Positions 7,793 through 18,829 of a stretch of 48,632 nucleotides of DNA are shown piece by piece (position 1 is the first letter of the stretch; the number at the start of each line of letters is the position of its first letter). Below the pieces are notes generated by a model. It worked only from the letters and a program-made list of their open reading frames with translations, was not told the DNA's origin and searched no databases. The translations under genes were made by a program, and so were the position numbers. Location: positions 1 to 48,632 of IMG/VR virus record IMGVR_UViG_3300009032_000002; one strand, 5' to 3'. This DNA comes from a virus.

Positions 7793-7987
7793 GTGCTAAA
7801 CCAGATTCTGCTCCCGCGAGGGAGTCGCCGGGTGAGAGATACCCCAGTTAGGTCCGCTGTCGTTCACCTCCACATGGAAGATGGGACCGAAACTCTGATC
7901 CCCTTAGTGGATTTGACGGTAGGATTTCGTACCCTAGAGGGTACGCTTCTACGAGAAAACACCTACGTGAGAAAGATCGAGAGTTGA
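7793..7987 (+). CDS. 64-residue hypothetical protein heading the NAD+ operon
   Basis: First gene behind TATACT (GTG start, no Shine-Dalgarno, leaderless spacing). The sequence (VVHLHMEDGTETLIPLVDLTV) looks like a small beta-rich domain with no recognisable motif. It ends in a TTGA overlap with the PRPP synthetase gene, so translation of the two is coupled. It might be regulatory, being leaderless and next to the palindrome, but nothing in the sequence proves DNA binding. Confidence 0.55.
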   Translation: MLNQILLPRGSRRVRDTPVRSAVVHLHMEDGTETLIPLVDLTVGFRTLEGTLLRENTYVRKIES

Positions 7988-8862
7988 CCACAGAAACCGA
8001 GATACGTCTAAACGGTCACAAAGTCTCCTTCGGCCAATACCCCAGTGGGGAGCCATTACTGCACTCAAGGGATCTGCCCCCGTGGGCGGAAGGGGAAATC
8101 ACCGTCAGGACCACCACCCTTGAGGGCATTATGCAGATGGCCCTCCTGGTAGACGCCTTGTGGACTCAGGGCCTTGAGCCCTCCCGCCTTCGTCTTCCCT
8201 ATGTGCCGGGGGCACGGCAGGACCGGCAGAACTTCTCCGGAGGTGACGTACTCTACACCATTAAGACGGTGGCCAAATTGATCAACTCTTGCCAGTTTGA
8301 AAGGGTGGAGATTTTGGACCCCCACTCCATCGCCACGACGGCCCTAATCGACCACTGCACCCCCACCACCATCCCCTGCGAGGCAATGAATTATCTCACT
8401 CCCCCCTATGGGGCCGTAGTGGCCCCAGATGCTGGAGCGGAGAAGCGGGCAGCCGCCATGGTGGCCCACTTGAATCGGGATTTGCTGAAGGGACAACATG
8501 CGCTCCAGGAGAGAGAGGTCCATCCCCCGATGCTTCTCCAGGGCTGGAAGCGACGCGACGCTACAAACGGACGGCTTTCGGGCTTTGGCATTCAACCCCC
8601 AGGAGATCCGGCTCCTTCGGGCCCCATCTTGATGATGGATGACATCTGCGACGGAGGAGGCACCTTCTTGGGGCTAGCCGCAGCCATGAGGGAAGCGGGT
8701 TACCAAAACCCCCTCCACCTCTATGTCACCCATGGTCTGTTCAGCAAAGGGACGGCCGAACTTCTTGAGGTGTTCGAAGCCATCCATTGCACCGACTCCA
8801 TCCTTTGTGAACGCCCCGGCGTCACAGTCATTCCACTCTTCCCCACCCAAGGACCAACATGA
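7984..8862 (+). CDS. prs: ribose-phosphate pyrophosphokinase (PRPP synthetase)
   Basis: 292 residues, slightly short for the family. Key elements are present: RQDR at 78-81 (ATP-site loop), LDPHS at 111-115 (catalytic His), VVAPDAGAEKRA at 145-156 (flexible loop with Lys/Arg) and MMDDICDGGGTF at 217-228 (the PRPP-binding loop). It converts ribose 5-phosphate and ATP to PRPP and AMP. The start is a TTG overlapping the previous stop. The next gene, overlapping by 4 nt (ATGA), is nicotinamide phosphoribosyltransferase, which consumes PRPP, so the pair feeds NMN synthesis. PRPP could also support nucleotide synthesis. Confidence 0.9.
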   Translation: MTTETEIRLNGHKVSFGQYPSGEPLLHSRDLPPWAEGEITVRTTTLEGIMQMALLVDALWTQGLEPSRLRLPYVPGARQDRQNFSGGDVLYTIKTVAKLINSCQFERVEILDPHSIATTALIDHCTPTTIPCEAMNYLTPPYGAVVAPDAGAEKRAAAMVAHLNRDLLKGQHALQEREVHPPMLLQGWKRRDATNGRLSGFGIQPPGDPAPSGPILMMDDICDGGGTFLGLAAAMREAGYQNPLHLYVTHGLFSKGTAELLEVFEAIHCTDSILCERPGVTVIPLFPTQGPT

Positions 8863-10337
8863 AGCCCCCAGTGCTCTTCTCGACCGATTGCTACAAGCTC
8901 GGCCACTCCCAACAGTACCCCCAGGGAACTGAGTACGTCCAATCCAACCTGACGGCTCGCACCTCACGAGTGGAGGGGCAGGGGTCCGTTGTGTTCTTTG
9001 GCCTTCAATACTTCCTCCACGAGTATCTGGGCGCCGCATTCGACACCTTCTTCAATGCCCCTCTGGACGACATCCTACGGGATTACCAAGCCAGAACGAC
9101 CGCCATCTTGGGCCCTAACGGCATTGGGACATCACATATTGAGGCACTGTGGCGCCTCCAATACGTCCCGATTGTCATTCGTGCCTTTCCTGAGGGTTCC
9201 GTGGTCCCCATCGGGGTTCCCCTGCTGACCATCGAGAACACCCATCCGGGGTTCGGGTGGTTGGTGAACTACCTCGAAACCCTCCTGTCCGCTACGACAT
9301 GGCTCTCCATCACTACTGCCACTTCCGCCATGAGAATGCGGCGCATCTTGGAGTCCGGAGCCAAGGCAACGGGGGTGGCTCCAGAGTTTGTCGATTGGCA
9401 AGCCCACGACTTCAGCTTCCGTGGGATGGGGGGCCTGGAAGCTGCCCAGATGAGCGGGGCTGCCCATTTGGTGTTCTTCACCGGCTCCGACACCATCCCC
9501 GCCATGGACTTCCTCCAGCAAAACTACGAGATCCACCCCGACACTCTCATCATGGGCAGCGTTGCAGCTACTGAGCATTCCGTCATGTGTGCCGGTGGAG
9601 AACTGACGGAGATGGAAACGTTCGACCGGCTCCTGGACACCTACCCAACGGGGATTGTGTCCATTGTGAGCGACACATGGGATCTGTGGAAAGTGCTCAC
9701 GGGCATTCTCCCCGCTCTCAAGGACAAAATTCTTGGACGAGAGGGCAAGCTCGTCCTGCGTCCGGACAGCGGAGATCCGGTCAACATCATCTGCGGCAAC
9801 CCAGATGCCCTGGTGGCGGGCTCCCCCGAGAGCAAGGGCGTCATCCAGCTCCTTTGGGATGAGTTTGGTGGGACTACCAACGCTGCTGGATTCCGAACCC
9901 TGGACGCTCACGTGGGTGCCATCTACGGCGACAGCATCACCCACGACAGGGCCAAGCGCATCCTCTCGCGTCTCAAGGATGCGGGGTTCGCATCGGACAA
10001 CATCATCTTCGGCGTGGGAAGCTTTACGTACCAATTTGTGACCCGCGATACCTACGGCATGGCCGTAAAGGCCACGTGGGCGCAAGTAAATGGCGAGGGT
10101 CGGGATCTTTACAAGGACCCCGTGACGGATTCTGGCATCAAACGTTCCGCCAGGGGTCGGCTAGCTGTGCTCCCAAACGAAGTTGGTCGTCCCACGCTAA
10201 TCAACCAAGCCACCCGCTCCCAGGAGAACGAATCTCTCCTGATCGAAGCTTGGCGCGATGGCATTGTCTCGTCGGCGCTTTCCCTAGAGGGCGTACGGGG
10301 CCGGGCGCGCAAGGAGATGGAAGCCTCGTGGGCCTGA
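8859..10337 (+). CDS. nadV: nicotinamide phosphoribosyltransferase
   Basis: 492 residues, full length for NAMPT/NadV. The N-terminus STDCYKLGHSQQYPQGTEYV is the family signature. HDFSFRGM (183-190) matches the HDFGYRG active-site segment, AATEHS (236-241) carries the catalytic His at 240, and RPDSGDP (301-307) matches the RPDSGNP phosphoribosyl-binding loop. It joins nicotinamide and PRPP to give NMN. Together with the upstream PRPP synthetase it rebuilds NAD+ from nicotinamide, provided the host supplies NMN adenylyltransferase, which I do not see here. Phage genes of this type are known to restore NAD+ after NAD+-depleting defence systems act. The ATGA overlap with prs indicates tight co-expression. 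Confidence 0.95.
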   Translation: MKPPVLFSTDCYKLGHSQQYPQGTEYVQSNLTARTSRVEGQGSVVFFGLQYFLHEYLGAAFDTFFNAPLDDILRDYQARTTAILGPNGIGTSHIEALWRLQYVPIVIRAFPEGSVVPIGVPLLTIENTHPGFGWLVNYLETLLSATTWLSITTATSAMRMRRILESGAKATGVAPEFVDWQAHDFSFRGMGGLEAAQMSGAAHLVFFTGSDTIPAMDFLQQNYEIHPDTLIMGSVAATEHSVMCAGGELTEMETFDRLLDTYPTGIVSIVSDTWDLWKVLTGILPALKDKILGREGKLVLRPDSGDPVNIICGNPDALVAGSPESKGVIQLLWDEFGGTTNAAGFRTLDAHVGAIYGDSITHDRAKRILSRLKDAGFASDNIIFGVGSFTYQFVTRDTYGMAVKATWAQVNGEGRDLYKDPVTDSGIKRSARGRLAVLPNEVGRPTLINQATRSQENESLLIEAWRDGIVSSALSLEGVRGRARKEMEASWA

Positions 10338-10762: not shown

Positions 10763-11166
10763 AACTTGAGGAAGAGGAACTGGCTCTTCTGGTAAAAAGA
10801 ACCCCCCCCAGCACGGAGGCCCACTCCAACATGGACCCAGGCCTGCGTGACCGCTGGATCGAGGCACTGGAATCCAAGAAATACAAGCGGTGCAAGAACC
10901 GACTGCGGGACGGCGATGCCTACTGCCCCCTGGGGGTCCTGTGCGACCTAGTAGACCCTAAGGGCTGGAAACGGGAAGGCCCCATGCACTTTCGCGGAGA
11001 AGGGTGGTTTCATCAAAAGCGCCGCGGCAAGCCCTCGGCGGATATTCTGCGGACCATTGGCCTTTCCTCTTGGGCTTGTGGGAAGCTGGAAGATGTAAAT
11101 TGGCTCCGAGTTTCGCCACCCAACTCATTTGCTCGATCTATCGAATGGATAAGGAACAACCTTTGA
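10750..11166 (+). CDS. hypothetical protein with YCPLGVLCDL motif
   Basis: 138 residues. The segment WIEALESKKYKRCKNRLRDG followed by AYCPLGVLCDL is a pattern I know from widespread phage hypothetical proteins of unknown function. The C-terminal part carries SWACGKL and FARSIEWIRNN, where helical packing is likely. GAGGAG stands upstream of the GTG start. It overlaps the ThyX gene as TTGA. Confidence 0.65.
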   Translation: MVAVELEEEELALLVKRTPPSTEAHSNMDPGLRDRWIEALESKKYKRCKNRLRDGDAYCPLGVLCDLVDPKGWKREGPMHFRGEGWFHQKRRGKPSADILRTIGLSSWACGKLEDVNWLRVSPPNSFARSIEWIRNNL

Positions 11167-12119
11167 CTTACACCGAGGTCCCCCCATGGCACGAGGGTCC
11201 ACTGCCCCATAGGCCTTGTGCCAGGATCATTCAGGACTCCATTGCGGAGAACGGACTCAGGGCCACTACCTTTGAAGTCAAGGTACATCGCTTCATTCTT
11301 GCGGAAGTCAACACCCACACACTGTTCTCACGCAACAGTGCATCGAGCCGCGCCATTCCGCTTCGCAGCAAGGACCGTCCCGACGGCTCCAACCCCCGAA
11401 TGGGCACGCTGGACCGTCTGGAAGACCTGGGGCCCGCTTTCCCAATCCGCTGGCCACTTGAGCAGCCGGGCATGCAGGGAGGGGATGAGGAAGCCGACGT
11501 CCTCCAAGCTCGTTTGGCCTGGAGCCATTCCATGCAGGACGCCATCGAACATGCGGAGCAACTTGAAAGCCTGGGGGTACACAAGAGCATTGCCAATCGT
11601 GTTCTTGAACCCTATGGCTATCATGTCGCCACAATCACTGCCGTAGACTGGGTAGGGTTTTTCCGCCAGCGCTCTTGGAATCACACCAAGTTGGTCCAGC
11701 CGGAGTTTGGGCTCGTAGCCACTCTAGTGGAAGATCTCTACATGACCTCCACTCCCAGCCCCGTGGGGGCAGGGGAATGGCACACCCCCTACATTCGTCC
11801 TGACGAGATGGATGAGTTCCCCCTGTGGGATCGTCTTCGCATTAGCGCTGCACGAACGGCTCGCACCAGTTATCTCACTCACGATGGCAAGCGAGACCCC
11901 CAAGCGGACCTTAGCCTCTACGGAAACCTGACTTCGGCCGAGCCCCCCCACGCCAGTCCCCTCCAGCACGTCATGACGCCAGACCCAGAGAATGAGTTCA
12001 ATTGGCGAGTAGACCCTGCCGATTATGGACTGCCCGGCGAGCCAAGCGAATACTGGGTCCCCATTGTGGGGAATTGTCGCGGGTGGATGCAAATGCGCCA
12101 CCTGGTGCTAGGATTCTGA
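11163..12119 (+). CDS. thyX: FAD-dependent thymidylate synthase
   Basis: 318 residues from a TTG at 11163 (overlapping the previous TGA as TTGA, AAGGA 7 nt upstream). An ATG at 11145 would add 6 residues but has no ribosome site. RFILAEVNTHTLFSRNSASS (43-62) followed by RAIP is the ThyX signature in the long phage form, and NRVLEPY plus FFRQRSWNHTKLVQPEF match further conserved blocks. It methylates dUMP to dTMP with methylene-tetrahydrofolate, FAD and NADPH. The signature has THT where many family members have THR. Dependence on NAD(P)H and folate links it to the NAD+ pair in the same operon. Confidence 0.9.
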   Translation: MTYTEVPPWHEGPLPHRPCARIIQDSIAENGLRATTFEVKVHRFILAEVNTHTLFSRNSASSRAIPLRSKDRPDGSNPRMGTLDRLEDLGPAFPIRWPLEQPGMQGGDEEADVLQARLAWSHSMQDAIEHAEQLESLGVHKSIANRVLEPYGYHVATITAVDWVGFFRQRSWNHTKLVQPEFGLVATLVEDLYMTSTPSPVGAGEWHTPYIRPDEMDEFPLWDRLRISAARTARTSYLTHDGKRDPQADLSLYGNLTSAEPPHASPLQHVMTPDPENEFNWRVDPADYGLPGEPSEYWVPIVGNCRGWMQMRHLVLGF

Positions 12120-12121
12120 TC

Positions 12122-12250
12122 ATGTCCGAACCAAAAGGCCCCTACAGCCACGAATCCCTAATGGCCCCCAAGGAACAGGTGCCCGATTGGGTCCTGAGGG
12201 GGATGGCGAAGTCCAAGCAGGTACCTTCCGAGGAGCCCAGTGGACACTGA
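12122..12250 (+). CDS. 42-residue hypothetical protein
   Basis: A short frame between ThyX and the methyltransferase, starting MSEPKGPYSHESLMAP. It begins 2 nt after the ThyX stop and overlaps the next gene by 11 nt. It is basic and Pro-rich with no motif. It is included because the tight spacing mirrors other small genes in this operon. Confidence 0.45.
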   Translation: MSEPKGPYSHESLMAPKEQVPDWVLRGMAKSKQVPSEEPSGH

Positions 12251-12980
12251 GCCCCTCAGGGTACATGCTGCGCGCATGGCCCTCCAGGATGCTGAGGTAG
12301 CCCTTACGCTGGCCCTCTTGGTCGATGAGACGAGAGACCCATTCGGCCCCGTTCTCCTGGATGGGTCTCCCCCCGTTCTGGCGGCTCAACCCTGGCCCAC
12401 CAACGCCCACTTGATTGCCGATTGTGCCCGGCTGGGCTATATCTGCAAGGATTCCCTCACATTGGATCCCACCTACGGGCGAGGGACCTGGTGGAGCATT
12501 TGGCGCCCCGACCGGCTTGTTTGGTACAAAGACACTATAGATTTTCGTGATATTCCACACCCTGATGGCACATTTGATGTCATTGCGTACGACCCCCCCT
12601 TCGTGTCCGCAGGAGGTCGATCCACGACAGGGCTACCGAACATGCACGATCATTACGGCATGCGAGACGCCCCACGAACCCCAGCGGCCCTACAGGGTCT
12701 GATGAACAAGGGCTTCGAAGAGTGCGTCCGCGTCGTCAAGCCGGGCGGGTTGGTCCTATTCAAATGTCAGGACTACATCTCCAGTGGCAAGTTGTGGCCC
12801 GGCACCTTTCTTACGCAATTCCACGCACTCCATCTCAACCTGGAGATGGTGGATCGCATGGAAATGGTGACCAAGCCCCGCCCGCAGCCGCAACGCAAGC
12901 GCCAGGATGGCAGCCACAGCACTCAACAGCACGCCAGGCGCAACCTCTCCACCCTACTTGTCTTTAGAAGGCCTAAATGA
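12240..12980 (+). CDS. DNA methyltransferase (DPPF type)
   Basis: 246 residues. YDPPF at 117-121 is motif IV of amino-group (N6-adenine or N4-cytosine) methyltransferases, LDPTYGRGTWW at 75-85 resembles the SAM-binding motif I, and CVRVVKPGGLVLFKCQDYI fits the strand and helix that follow motif IV. It probably methylates phage DNA to evade host restriction. No cognate endonuclease is visible. The GTG start lies within the previous gene, and the end overlaps the next gene as ATGA. It is small for a site-specific enzyme and has no clear target-recognition domain. Confidence 0.8.
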   Translation: MDTEPLRVHAARMALQDAEVALTLALLVDETRDPFGPVLLDGSPPVLAAQPWPTNAHLIADCARLGYICKDSLTLDPTYGRGTWWSIWRPDRLVWYKDTIDFRDIPHPDGTFDVIAYDPPFVSAGGRSTTGLPNMHDHYGMRDAPRTPAALQGLMNKGFEECVRVVKPGGLVLFKCQDYISSGKLWPGTFLTQFHALHLNLEMVDRMEMVTKPRPQPQRKRQDGSHSTQQHARRNLSTLLVFRRPK

Positions 12981-15737: not shown

Positions 15738-16547
15738 TCAGCTCCAGCTCTCTTGGCCCTCTGGACTCGCTACCCGCACGTCCTGTTCCACCAGGCCTAG
15801 CTGAACAGCCGCCGCCACTCCTGCGGCATTTGTGTCACCCCCGTTGAGTGCCACCCACTCACGAAAGTAACCCTCATAGGCCCCACGGGACACTTTGGCG
15901 CGTAGTTCCCCAAAGCGGAAGAGAACCCAATCGCTGGGAGCATGCTTGGGTGCCCGTTTGGGCCCTAGGGGCTCACCCGCCGAGACGGGCATGTCCAGGT
16001 CCCTCAAGACCCCCTCGGCTTGGTCAGCCGCCCCCCTGAGGGCATTGGCTGCCGGGAACAGGCGATCCAGCACCCTCAGGGCCGTAACGTTTGCCTCCCT
16101 GTCGCTCTCATCCATGTCCGGCAGTTGGATCAGGGCATCGGCCAAGAGTTCATCCACGTCCTCGGCGCTATAGCCCGTCCCCGCCAAGAGGGCTTCGTCC
16201 TCCTCGCGAATTTCCCCCAAGAGGGCCGCCAGGGTGAACTCATCGTAGCCACCCAGGTCCGCCGTCCTGTTGGCTGCCAACAGGATCTTGGTTGCCGCAT
16301 CGGCCTCCACGTCCACATAAACCACGTCAATGGTGTCCCACTGAAGGGAACGTGCGGCCAAGTAAGTATGATTGCCCGCCAAGATGTAGTTGGTTGATGC
16401 CTGCACCACGATGGGCTGAAACTGCCCATTGGCCGAAAGGGACTCCGCTATGGCGGCCACGTCCCCCCGACGAGGGTTCTGTGGGTGTGTCTCCAGGTCC
16501 TCCAGGGGGACTTGAAGTATGCGACCGAGTAGGCTGTTGGACTTCAC
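15738..16547 (-). CDS. ParB/Srx-fold protein, paralogue of the next gene's N-terminus
   Basis: 269 residues from a GTG at 16547, overlapping the upstream stop as GTGA. The first 140 residues form a ParB-like domain: HPQNPRRGDVAAIAESLSAN, QPIVVQ, ILAGNHTYLAARSL, then KILLAANRTADLGGYDE and a helical DEALLAGTGYSAEDVDELL. The order matches residues 10-135 of the adjacent fused protein (NPRRGNIAAVAASL, ILAGNHTWRAAKSLGW, DNRTSDLGEYD, AYSEEDILALL), so this is a tandem duplication. The C-terminal half has no recognised domain. ParB/Srx domains of this type accompany phage methyltransferases and may bind DNA or nucleotides. Plasmid-type partitioning is unlikely because no ParA is seen. Confidence 0.75.
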   Translation of the reverse strand: MKSNSLLGRILQVPLEDLETHPQNPRRGDVAAIAESLSANGQFQPIVVQASTNYILAGNHTYLAARSLQWDTIDVVYVDVEADAATKILLAANRTADLGGYDEFTLAALLGEIREEDEALLAGTGYSAEDVDELLADALIQLPDMDESDREANVTALRVLDRLFPAANALRGAADQAEGVLRDLDMPVSAGEPLGPKRAPKHAPSDWVLFRFGELRAKVSRGAYEGYFREWVALNGGDTNAAGVAAAVQLGLVEQDVRVASPEGQESWS

Positions 16548-18829
16548 GGGGCCTCCAGGGCCACTATGGGGCCGCACTTGAGCGTGGCCAACTTGGCATC
16601 CCCCTTGAGGAATACCTGGACGTACTGGTGTGCCATCCCAAGCTTGCGGGTGGCGTCAAACTGGCGCCCCACCCGCAGGGGAAGGCTCGTGAGCCTCATG
16701 GTCAAGATGGCTTCGTTGTGGAGGTGGAGCCCCAGATCCTGCATGATGGAGACGTTGGCGGCGGGGAAGCCACGCAAATTGCCGCGCTGATCGCGGAAGT
16801 CTCCCACCACCATGACGGCGAAGCTATTGGGCTCCAGTAACTCGACCGATTCCCGCATGATCTCTCGTAGCTCCGTAAGGAACTCCTCGTAGCCCATGGT
16901 GGAGAGGTCACGCGGGTCGTCGCTGTAGACCTCTAGGTCCCCATAGGGGGGGCACGTGAGGATGGCGGAGGCTTGACGCTCGCCATGGGGCCAAACGGAA
17001 CGTACGTCGATGCCGTCGGCTGCAACCCAAATGGGCTCGGGGGCATCAGCCGCTATGGCGGACGGTCGAATGGCTGAAACCCACAAGAGATCTCCCTCTT
17101 GGAGGTGGGGGATGCACTTAGCCTCATACCAGGCGTCAAGTTGGACGTCGCCCAACATGACATCGTCCGTTGGGACGTGGTAGTCGGACGGGTGATCCAG
17201 GATCTCCACGGTCTCACGCCAATCCGTAGGGGCCCATTTGTCGAGGCGTTCTTCCGGGACATGGCCTACGCAAACGGCCAGAACGGGGATCTTTCTGCCC
17301 GCTTCCTTGAGGCCCCAGAGGATGCCCGCCAGGGTCATGCCGGAGCCGCATGCGTTTACGATGCGACTAACCCCCTCGGGGATGTTGGCCACCTGGGGCT
17401 TGGTGAAGGTAATGGCTTCCTGGGATTCCATTCCGTAGGGAATCTCTACGTGACTATTCGCCTGAGCATCCTCGCGTGCATGCTTGATGATGACGGTGTT
17501 GTAGCCGTATTCGTGCTGCACCAACGTGGCTCCTGCCGCCTTGGCGGCAATCAACTCTGGAGTCAATTCCCCAGAGGGAACGTGCACCCGACAGGGCACG
17601 CCAAGGCGATGGGCGATTTGAGCAACGAAGTTCACCTGGGGGGATTGGCGACTACCCGCCGTAACAACCCCACAGCCCCGCTCCTTTGCTTGCTCGATGA
17701 AGTGACGGCACGTACGAACCTTCGCCCCACGGACCCCAGCGAAGGCGTAAAGGTCTTCCCGCTTTAGCCAGATCCCTCGATCCTCTAGCCGCTCCACGGG
17801 GGTAACGTCCGGAAGGTTGTCTTTGGGGATCTCCGGCACAAGGGCCTTACGGTCCCCCATGACGGCTTCCACTTGAGAGCGATTGGATTCGATTTGGTTG
17901 GGCCGGATGTCCGTGCCGAAGTATTCACGGCCCATGAGGGCAGAGACCAGCCCCCTACTGGATCCACCAGCGAAGGGGTCCAGGACCAATCCAGCCGAAG
18001 GGGAGAACCAGCTCAGGAGGATCTCGCAAAGAACGGGATCGAAGACACTTGTGGATCCAGCCCCATAGAGAAGAGGATCCCCCGCTGGGTCACGTTCGGC
18101 CTTGTCCTCCGTGCCAACCTCTAGGTGGCGGGGCGGGGGGGCGAGATACCAGGTTCGAGGCTTATCGTCACGCCCCAGTTCGCCCAGGAGGCCCATCTCC
18201 ATCCATCGCTGCTTGCGGTCCATCCACCAATTTTCCCTCCCGTTCAAGACGGTGAAGGGGGGGACCCCAAAGCGATCCGACAGGGAAAGGCGAGTGCGCC
18301 TTTGTCCTCCCTCAGGGGCCCCCTCAGGGGCGGCCGGGGGGGCTGGGGGGAGCGAGGAAGGACTGGTGGGGCCCAGGGGGGCTGGTGGGCCCTCAGGGGC
18401 CTCCAGGGAGGGCACGGGGGCATCCAGGAGGGCCAGAATGTCCTCCTCGCTGTAAGCGGTTGCGGCCAATAGCTCCAAATCCGCATCCGCCACGTCCGCC
18501 AGAAGGTTTAGAAGGTCCTCTTGATCGTATTCACCCAAATCGGAGGTGCGATTGTCTACCAATACGATGGCCTTGGCGGTAATTTCATCCACGTCAAGGC
18601 TGGAGATGGCAATGTGAGTCCACCCGAGAGACTTGGCCGCCCGCCAGGTGTGGTTCCCCGCTAGAATCTCCCCCGTTTGGGCACGAACCACGATGGGCTT
18701 GATCTGGCCGAATTCAGTCAAGGAGGCCGCCACCGCCGCAATGTTGCCGCGGCGAGGATTGCCCTCCAGGGGATGGACTTCATCAATCGGAACCGCTAGA
18801 GCCTGAAGGCTCGCAGGAATATGGATCAT
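16544..18829 (-). CDS. ParB domain + DNA methyltransferase with an embedded PLP-enzyme domain
   Basis: 761 residues. Residues 10-135 are a ParB/Srx-like domain (ILAGNHTWRAAKSLGW). Residues 136-180 are a Pro-rich linker. Residues 185-325 start a methyltransferase: FGVPPFTVLNGRENWW, the SAM motif LDPFAGGSSRG (283-293) and YFGTDIRPNQIESN. The chain then enters a fold-type-II PLP enzyme (about 335-590): WLKREDLYAF, a candidate Schiff-base Lys at 370 (RGAKVRT), TAGSRQSPQVNF (390-401) and a Gly-rich phosphate loop ACGSGMT (493-499), closest to ACC deaminase, D-cysteine desulfhydrase or Trp synthase beta. Methyltransferase sequence resumes at about 598 with IWVAADGIDVR and LTCPPYGDLEVYSDD (624-638, motif IV). 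In related phage proteins I know, motif I leads directly to motif IV, so the PLP part looks nested. No intein motifs are seen. It overlaps both neighbours by 4 nt. Confidence 0.8.
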   Translation of the reverse strand: MIHIPASLQALAVPIDEVHPLEGNPRRGNIAAVAASLTEFGQIKPIVVRAQTGEILAGNHTWRAAKSLGWTHIAISSLDVDEITAKAIVLVDNRTSDLGEYDQEDLLNLLADVADADLELLAATAYSEEDILALLDAPVPSLEAPEGPPAPLGPTSPSSLPPAPPAAPEGAPEGGQRRTRLSLSDRFGVPPFTVLNGRENWWMDRKQRWMEMGLLGELGRDDKPRTWYLAPPPRHLEVGTEDKAERDPAGDPLLYGAGSTSVFDPVLCEILLSWFSPSAGLVLDPFAGGSSRGLVSALMGREYFGTDIRPNQIESNRSQVEAVMGDRKALVPEIPKDNLPDVTPVERLEDRGIWLKREDLYAFAGVRGAKVRTCRHFIEQAKERGCGVVTAGSRQSPQVNFVAQIAHRLGVPCRVHVPSGELTPELIAAKAAGATLVQHEYGYNTVIIKHAREDAQANSHVEIPYGMESQEAITFTKPQVANIPEGVSRIVNACGSGMTLAGILWGLKEAGRKIPVLAVCVGHVPEERLDKWAPTDWRETVEILDHPSDYHVPTDDVMLGDVQLDAWYEAKCIPHLQEGDLLWVSAIRPSAIAADAPEPIWVAADGIDVRSVWPHGERQASAILTCPPYGDLEVYSDDPRDLSTMGYEEFLTELREIMRESVELLEPNSFAVMVVGDFRDQRGNLRGFPAANVSIMQDLGLHLHNEAILTMRLTSLPLRVGRQFDATRKLGMAHQYVQVFLKGDAKLATLKCGPIVALEAP

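Follow-up and report, generated by a model that had tools for sequence, protein, structure and literature searches.

A phage ParB-transferase polypeptide with a nested PLP domain as a candidate enzyme of DNA hypermodification

Introduction

The DNA analyzed here, hereafter the window, is a stretch of 48,632 bases from an IMG/VR virus record (IMGVR_UViG_3300009032_000002). On its minus strand it carries an open reading frame of 761 amino acids (16544-18829; P0001) in which a ParB_N domain is followed by a class I methyltransferase split by an enzyme domain of the PALP family, which depends on pyridoxal phosphate (PLP). The original prediction had described this frame, leaving its strand unstated, and had suggested that the PLP domain may alter the methylated or otherwise modified base, or a small molecule that regulates the methylase. 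The locus raises the question of what chemistry a PLP enzyme might perform from inside a DNA-modifying transferase. What we could establish is the architecture, an intact PLP site, the genetic pairing of the transferase family with either a PLP domain or the S-adenosylmethionine (SAM) decarboxylase SpeD, and a matching change in the SAM-binding motif. From these observations we lean, by a little, toward an undescribed DNA base modification, in which 3-aminopropyl or 3-amino-3-carboxypropyl (acp) bases are made from the amino-acid part of SAM. One phage transferase family would work with at least two unrelated decarboxylases, either a PLP domain, often nested, or the pyruvoyl enzyme SpeD, and the order of the steps would be switched between them, a switch recorded in the SAM-binding motif.

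A complete PLP domain is nested in a class I transferase

Each component of the frame scored above its curated Pfam cut-off: ParB_N at residues 13-93 (2.4e-8; PF02195, 34.3 bits versus 26.3), PALP at residues 343-523 (4.5e-16; PF00291, 59.5 bits versus 35) and N6_N4_Mtase in two stretches (1.8e-10; PF01555, 41.6 bits versus 26.7). The PHROG family phrog_498 (DNA methyltransferase) also matched in two stretches (1.2e-86), the best of which, residues 259-754, spans the PLP insert. The domains thus run from ParB_N through the first half of the transferase and a complete fold-type-II PLP domain (residues 337-591) to the second half, which carries the motif IV sequence CPPY. All four motifs quoted in the original prediction (LDPFAGGSSRG, RGAKVRT with K370, ACGSGMT and LTCPPYGDLEVYSDD) are present.

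We modelled the protein with AlphaFold2 from an alignment of the window protein and 35 relatives. The mean predicted local distance difference test score was 83.5, with values mostly of 90 to 98 in the PLP domain, and both flanking transferase halves were confident; structure prediction, proposed earlier as a check, thus placed a PLP domain between methyltransferase segments whose strands and helices were themselves modelled with confidence. The insertion point follows the helix that comes after strand beta2 of the transferase and precedes strand beta3, and residues 138-181 and 220-260 form disordered linkers. Residues 337-591 aligned with 1j0a, a homologue of 1-aminocyclopropane-1-carboxylate (ACC) deaminase, over 254 residues (Z 25.8, root mean square deviation 2.7) and also matched D-cysteine desulfhydrase and TrpB, as expected of a tryptophan-synthase-beta fold. 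In a natural relative that lacks PALP (L080), modelled alone, the same transferase strands continue unbroken, and the best matches of that model were the guanine-N2 methyltransferases TrmN, Trm11 and Trm14 (Z 18-19). A Foldseek search with the transferase model gave many generic class I methyltransferases and no aminopropyl transferase among the matches listed, a result that does not exclude one. The structural match to 1j0a, the Pfam PALP hit and the K370 site (see below) ruled out the idea that the insert is an ordinary target-recognition domain.

The homologue search for the same nesting found it in Pseudanabaena phage Pam4 (gp70; 40.5% identity, 96% covered) and in Erythrobacter phages ZS04 and R6L. 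Its occurrence in these isolated phages and in many contigs ruled out an assembly chimera. We collected 83 nested frames, a redundant set in which some are overlapping loci of the same contig. In all of them, PALP starts 11 to 34 residues past transferase half 1, and in most, half 2 resumes within 8 to 29 residues; eight hold another insert of about 190 to 400 residues.

Nesting is one of several arrangements, since PALP in viral contigs may be nested, fused C-terminally or encoded by a neighbouring gene. Microcystis phage Mae-JY30 has an uninterrupted transferase followed by the PALP gene, and in Mycobacterium phage Vincenzo a ParB-transferase (gene 1) and a PALP enzyme (gene 2) are encoded with a 35-base overlap. 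In several relatives (L004, L014-L017 and L003), the ParB part and the first transferase part lie on a separate upstream gene, with the break near the disordered linker. Well-supported branches of the tree force at least 12 PALP changes, which implies that PALP has been repeatedly gained and lost or re-plugged. Neighbourhood clustering returned chiefly genes for terminase and portal proteins; that the transferase usually lies beside terminase is therefore uninformative on its chemistry.

Several peculiarities turned up among these relatives. In Mae-JY30, the gene labelled "DNA modification methylase" (L003:7120-7830) encodes the PALP enzyme, of subfamily B. One relative (L023:5527-8427) carries an intein-like insert of ~390 residues exactly at motif IV (FTC|HPTG...VVSHN|CPPYG), which would make the invariant Cys of the motif the +1 residue of the extein, and a helicase gene beside another nested-PALP relative (L004:3295-6183) has an apparent intein with a homing domain near Walker A (TGLGKAQPISE...VTHNT). 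A Cys-rich domain (CHGxCC...GC...DKPVxCxxYPL...LFG), weakly DUF3109-like, recurs with the transferase in nine or more loci. It lies between PALP and transferase half 2 in L029, L030 and L031, between transferase and PALP in L037 and L046, inside a PALP-less transferase in L088, and in a separate or upstream frame in L042, L050, L051 and L055; it may be a third enzyme or a metal domain. Staphylococcus phage Alsa_1 (L012:2957-5717) encodes a divergent transferase of this kind in which TSPPY replaces CPPY and, about 1 kb further downstream, a stand-alone PALP relative.

The PLP site is conserved and has kin in hypermodification cassettes

In an alignment of 84 transferase-linked PALP domains, K370, the predicted Schiff-base residue, is Lys without exception in the 82 rows that align at this position, and G368, R357, G495, S496, Y568, K571 and W583 are near-invariant. 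Judged by its lysine and glycine-rich phosphate loop, the PLP site is intact, and the earlier assignment of the insert to the fold-type-II PLP enzymes is borne out.

A profile of the PLP domain, which already included close Ackermannviridae relatives of the enzyme of Salmonella phage ViI, found ViI orf00226 at 5.9e-48 and also the corresponding PLP enzyme of SN1, an M6-type phage. A plain tblastn search with the window PLP domain reached Vibrio Ackermannviridae phages at 3e-6 and, at 7e-11, Montesquieu gp41, which adjoins a gene for an alpha-glutamyl/putrescinyl-thymine pyrophosphorylase (aGPT-Pplase2). By sequence, the PLP domain is a homologue of the PLP enzymes in ViI/M6-type thymidine hypermodification cassettes, and the PLP genes that Ackermannviridae and M6-like phages carry have been placed in the 5-hydroxymethyldeoxyuridine (5-hmdU) modification pathway (PMC6336734, PMC9476957). 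The transferase-linked PALPs comprise two subfamilies that differ in their active-site loops: a CPPY transferase lies within 4 kb of PALP, be it nested, fused C-terminally or adjacent, in 72/80 viral loci of subfamily A and 74/80 of subfamily B. With 146 of 160 viral relatives accompanied in this way, and with the homology to hypermodification enzymes, the proposed tie of the PLP domain to DNA modification was upheld.

The ViI-type cassettes offer another known source of DNA-borne amino acids, of which PF18723 is the marker (5-hmdU/aGPT-Pplase pathway). PF18723 was found neither in the window nor in 20 of 21 PALP-transferase records, although the same search recovered it in 3/3 positive controls, and its absence from these records speaks for transfer of acp from SAM. 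Of these records, only the contig L040 combines a PALP-transferase with a PF18723 gene (5-hmdU kinase helical/aGPT-Pplase1; G010:25964-26788).

SpeD takes the place of the PLP domain in related loci

In Croceibacter phage P2559S, the SpeD gene overlaps one that encodes a member of the same transferase family. Among viral loci anchored on SpeD, collected from the P2559S protein, 72/80 had the transferase directly upstream, usually overlapping. PALP occurred in none of these 80 loci, and SpeD occurred in none of the 160 loci anchored on PALP. One transferase family pairs with either PALP or SpeD. Three of the eight SpeD loci without a transferase (L127, L133 and L151) had a second, divergent SpeD-like gene upstream, as polyamine clusters do.

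An E. coli speD mutant regained spermidine when complemented with the SpeD of P2559S, which is thus a genuine SAM decarboxylase (PMC9992855). The ES...HTFP processing signature of SAM decarboxylases (AdoMetDC) is kept in 72 of 73 transferase-linked SpeDs. We found spermidine synthase in 0/21 SpeD-transferase records, the whole P2559S genome included, and detected the same family in 11 of 14 control genomes. The position of SpeD beside a "methyltransferase", together with the lack of spermidine synthase in these records, implies that decarboxylated SAM is made there without a polyamine synthase in view. The exchange of PALP for SpeD in turn suggests a transferase that moves the amino-acid or aminopropyl part of SAM, which would make an amino acid available for PLP chemistry.

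The SAM-binding motif changes with the partner

Among the sharpest differences between PALP-linked, SpeD-linked and unpartnered transferases are two positions of motif I: residue 289 is Gly, Asp and Gly in the three groups, respectively, and residue 292 is Arg, Phe and Arg. In protein sets without identical copies, 130/133 PALP-anchored proteins and 81/82 unpartnered ones had the G..R form; of the SpeD-anchored proteins, 59/64 had D..F. At position 604, in motif III, Gly is changed to Asp in SpeD-linked transferases. Motif IV, by comparison, reads CPPY almost throughout the three groups, with Cys where amino-methyltransferases usually have D, N or S, and so departs from the (D/N/S)PP(Y/F/W) pattern of the N6/N4 amino DNA methyltransferases.

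Such a G/R versus D/F switch would be expected if the two donors differed by a carboxylate. The simplest reading is that the motif I Arg would be present where the donor has a carboxylate and absent where it does not. There is a precedent in the phage enzyme CmoX, which takes a carboxymethyl group from carboxy-SAM (Cx-SAM) and has an Arg binding the extra carboxylate (PMC12783734). The pairing with SpeD and the motif I switch fit a SAM-derived donor other than methyl, with the qualification that the SpeD-linked proteins are one clade and that the contact is deduced.

A proposed mechanism and its alternatives

The best explanation of the polypeptide, whose chemistry we infer, is a self-contained phage DNA hypermodification enzyme. 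The ParB domain would help to position the enzyme on DNA. The CPPY class I transferase would then move the acp group of SAM, rather than methyl, onto a base, probably at an exocyclic amine, after which the nested PLP domain, by homology to the hypermodification PLP enzymes that reportedly decarboxylate DNA-attached amino acids, may remove the carboxylate and leave a 3-aminopropyl base. In relatives of the SpeD type, the order would be the opposite: SAM would be decarboxylated first, and the transferase would move aminopropyl directly, giving the same product. Aminopropylation by two routes accounts most simply for the exchange of partners, the switch in motif I and the kinship of PALP, and we give an acp transferase whose product is decarboxylated by the nested PLP domain an even chance of being correct. 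Of the original interpretation, a PLP enzyme nested in an otherwise complete transferase and a link to DNA modification stood; nothing was found showing that the PLP domain alters a methylated base or regulates the methylase.

A number of points weigh against this mechanism. The closest folds to the transferase are tRNA guanine-N2 methyltransferases, which transfer methyl, and the solved folds nearest to the PALP domain, D-cysteine desulfhydrase and ACC deaminase, do not decarboxylate. The contact of R292 with the SAM carboxylate is suggested by its place in motif I. Because the SpeD-linked transferases form one clade in the tree, the switch in motif I happened once in evolution and could reflect ancestry rather than adaptation. 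Finally, 83/245 sampled family members have no nearby partner and share the G..R motif, which leaves room for simple methylation by the family.

One alternative is an ordinary DNA methyltransferase whose partners, PALP or SpeD, alter free pools of SAM or amino acids, for example by depleting SAM and starving host restriction-modification while the phage protects itself. Phage enzymes that destroy SAM exist, many family members are partnerless, and the transferase fold is a methyltransferase fold; however, an enzyme of free metabolites need not be inside the transferase, and nesting, C-terminal fusion and adjacency are all seen, while the donor-site motif varies with the partner. We consider this explanation unlikely, if foremost among the alternatives. 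Next in rank, and doubtful, is attachment of acp to DNA followed by a different PLP reaction, such as the deamination, elimination or replacement carried out by ACC deaminase, D-cysteine desulfhydrase or threonine synthase, to give another side chain. The nearest folds (Z 23.6-25.8) would suit it, and the differing active-site loops of the two transferase-linked PALP subfamilies suggest that products may differ, but SpeD as the alternative partner and the homology to hypermodification PLP enzymes favour decarboxylation.

The alternation of PALP and SpeD could also mean that the PLP domain does the work of SpeD by PLP chemistry and removes the carboxylate from free SAM. The transferase would then use decarboxylated SAM and arrive at an unchanged product, with the steps ordered as in the SpeD systems, and physical fusion would channel an unstable donor. 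Against this, PALP-linked proteins keep the G..R form of motif I, unlike the D..F of the presumed users of decarboxylated SAM, and the kin of PALP in ViI/M6-type phages belong to cassettes that act on DNA-borne amino acids. We place this possibility third and think it improbable. Service of the known 5-hydroxymethyluridine pathway, in which the PLP domain would process an amino acid installed by alpha-glutamyl/putrescinyl-thymine pyrophosphorylases, is very hard to credit: homologous PALP genes do occur in such cassettes, but the PF18723 search described above argues in the other direction.

Features of the window

The features of the fusion gene and its neighbour are collected in Table 1. The second ParB-like gene shares 34 bases with the fusion gene, at the 3' end of the latter.

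Table 1. Coordinates of the fusion gene, its domains and motifs, and the adjoining ParB-like gene
Feature	Coordinates	Strand	Evidence
761-aa ParB/class I transferase/nested PALP polypeptide P0001	16544..18829	-	Pfam, PHROG, AlphaFold2
ParB N-terminal-like domain, residues 10-138	18416..18802	-	Pfam ParB_N 2.4e-8; phrog_723 6e-44
Transferase half 1, residues 182-334: N-terminal segment FGVPPFTVLNGRENWW and motif I	17828..18286	-	Pfam N6_N4_Mtase, phrog_498, profile MTn
Motif I DPFAGGSSRG, residues 284-293	17951..17980	-	G289/R292 positions are Asp/Phe in SpeD-linked relatives
Nested fold-type-II PLP (PALP) domain, residues 337-591	17057..17821	-	Pfam PALP 4.5e-16; Z 25.8 to 1j0a
K370, predicted PLP Schiff-base lysine	17720..17722	-	Lys in 82/82 aligned transferase-linked PALPs and ViI orf00226
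PLP phosphate-binding loop CGSGMT, residues 494-499	17333..17350	-	G495, S496 in 83/84; G497 in 81/84
Transferase half 2, residues 596-756	16562..17044	-	phrog_12517 5.5e-79; phrog_498; phmmer match to 2zie
Motif IV CPPY, residues 626-629	16943..16954	-	Near-invariant in PALP-linked, SpeD-linked and unpartnered members
Second ParB-like gene	15738..16577	-	phrog_723 2.6e-43; 49% identity to the ParB domain of the fusion

Elsewhere in the window, on the plus strand, a ribose-phosphate pyrophosphokinase-like gene (phrog_619, 7.5e-54) adjoins a nicotinamide phosphoribosyltransferase-like gene (phrog_448, 7e-180) at 7984-10337, a pair that resembles a phage NAD+ reconstitution pair. A ThyX-like thymidylate synthase gene (11004-12119; phrog_85, Pfam Thy1 weak) is followed by a gene for a second, small DNA methyltransferase (12240-12980; phrog_24333) unrelated to that of the fusion gene.

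Significance and comparison with known systems

If the proposed aminopropylation is correct, hypermodification would gain a new point of entry in the amino-acid half of SAM, with no need for a modified nucleotide precursor, and one polypeptide may both attach a side chain to DNA and trim it there. A working SAM decarboxylase without spermidine synthase in a phage such as P2559S would be explained, and a widespread phage family now called "ParB/DNA methyltransferase" would be reassigned. Bases that carry a positive charge could block both restriction and CRISPR nucleases, and their amine would be a handle on DNA. The phage hypermodifications in the literature covered start from 5-hydroxymethyl bases or, since 2025, from carboxymethylcytosine. 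The open literature searched held no account of DNA aminopropylation, acp-DNA or a PLP-methyltransferase fusion, although Lee 2018, Lee 2021 and Iyer 2013 may mention them.

Among solved structures, TrmN, Trm11 and Trm14 share the transferase core and the order of motif I before motif IV, but they act on tRNA, carry (D/N)PPY and transfer methyl, whereas the window protein has CPPY, a ParB domain and a nested PALP. ACC deaminase and D-cysteine desulfhydrase have the fold of the insert (Z 23.6-25.8) and its PLP lysine in common; they are enzymes of free metabolites, with 22 to 24% identity to the insert over the aligned structures. The SpeD of P2559S was published as a polyamine enzyme, its link to a transferase unmentioned in the text searched (PMC9992855); its gene overlaps one of the same ParB-CPPY transferase family, and it has no PLP domain.

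The PALP proteins of ViI (orf00226/Vi01_182) and of the M6-type phage (SN1_023) are like that of the window in the lysine, the glycine loop and the YEGK/YEAK and W signatures, and likewise are tied genetically to DNA base modification. They are encoded by stand-alone genes in genomes with 5-hmdU and aGPT-Pplase genes, whereas the window PALP is nested in a SAM-dependent transferase without them. The CmoX/CmoA system of Synechococcus phage S-B43 (PMC12783734) is a phage DNA transferase that uses a SAM derivative and leaves a charged handle for further chemistry, as the window protein may do, and ParB-domain neighbours are frequent. CmoX, a DNA cytosine carboxymethyltransferase, is of the C5-cytosine type and uses Cx-SAM made by CmoA and a ligase, whereas the family described here pairs a CPPY amino-type transferase with a PLP domain or SpeD.

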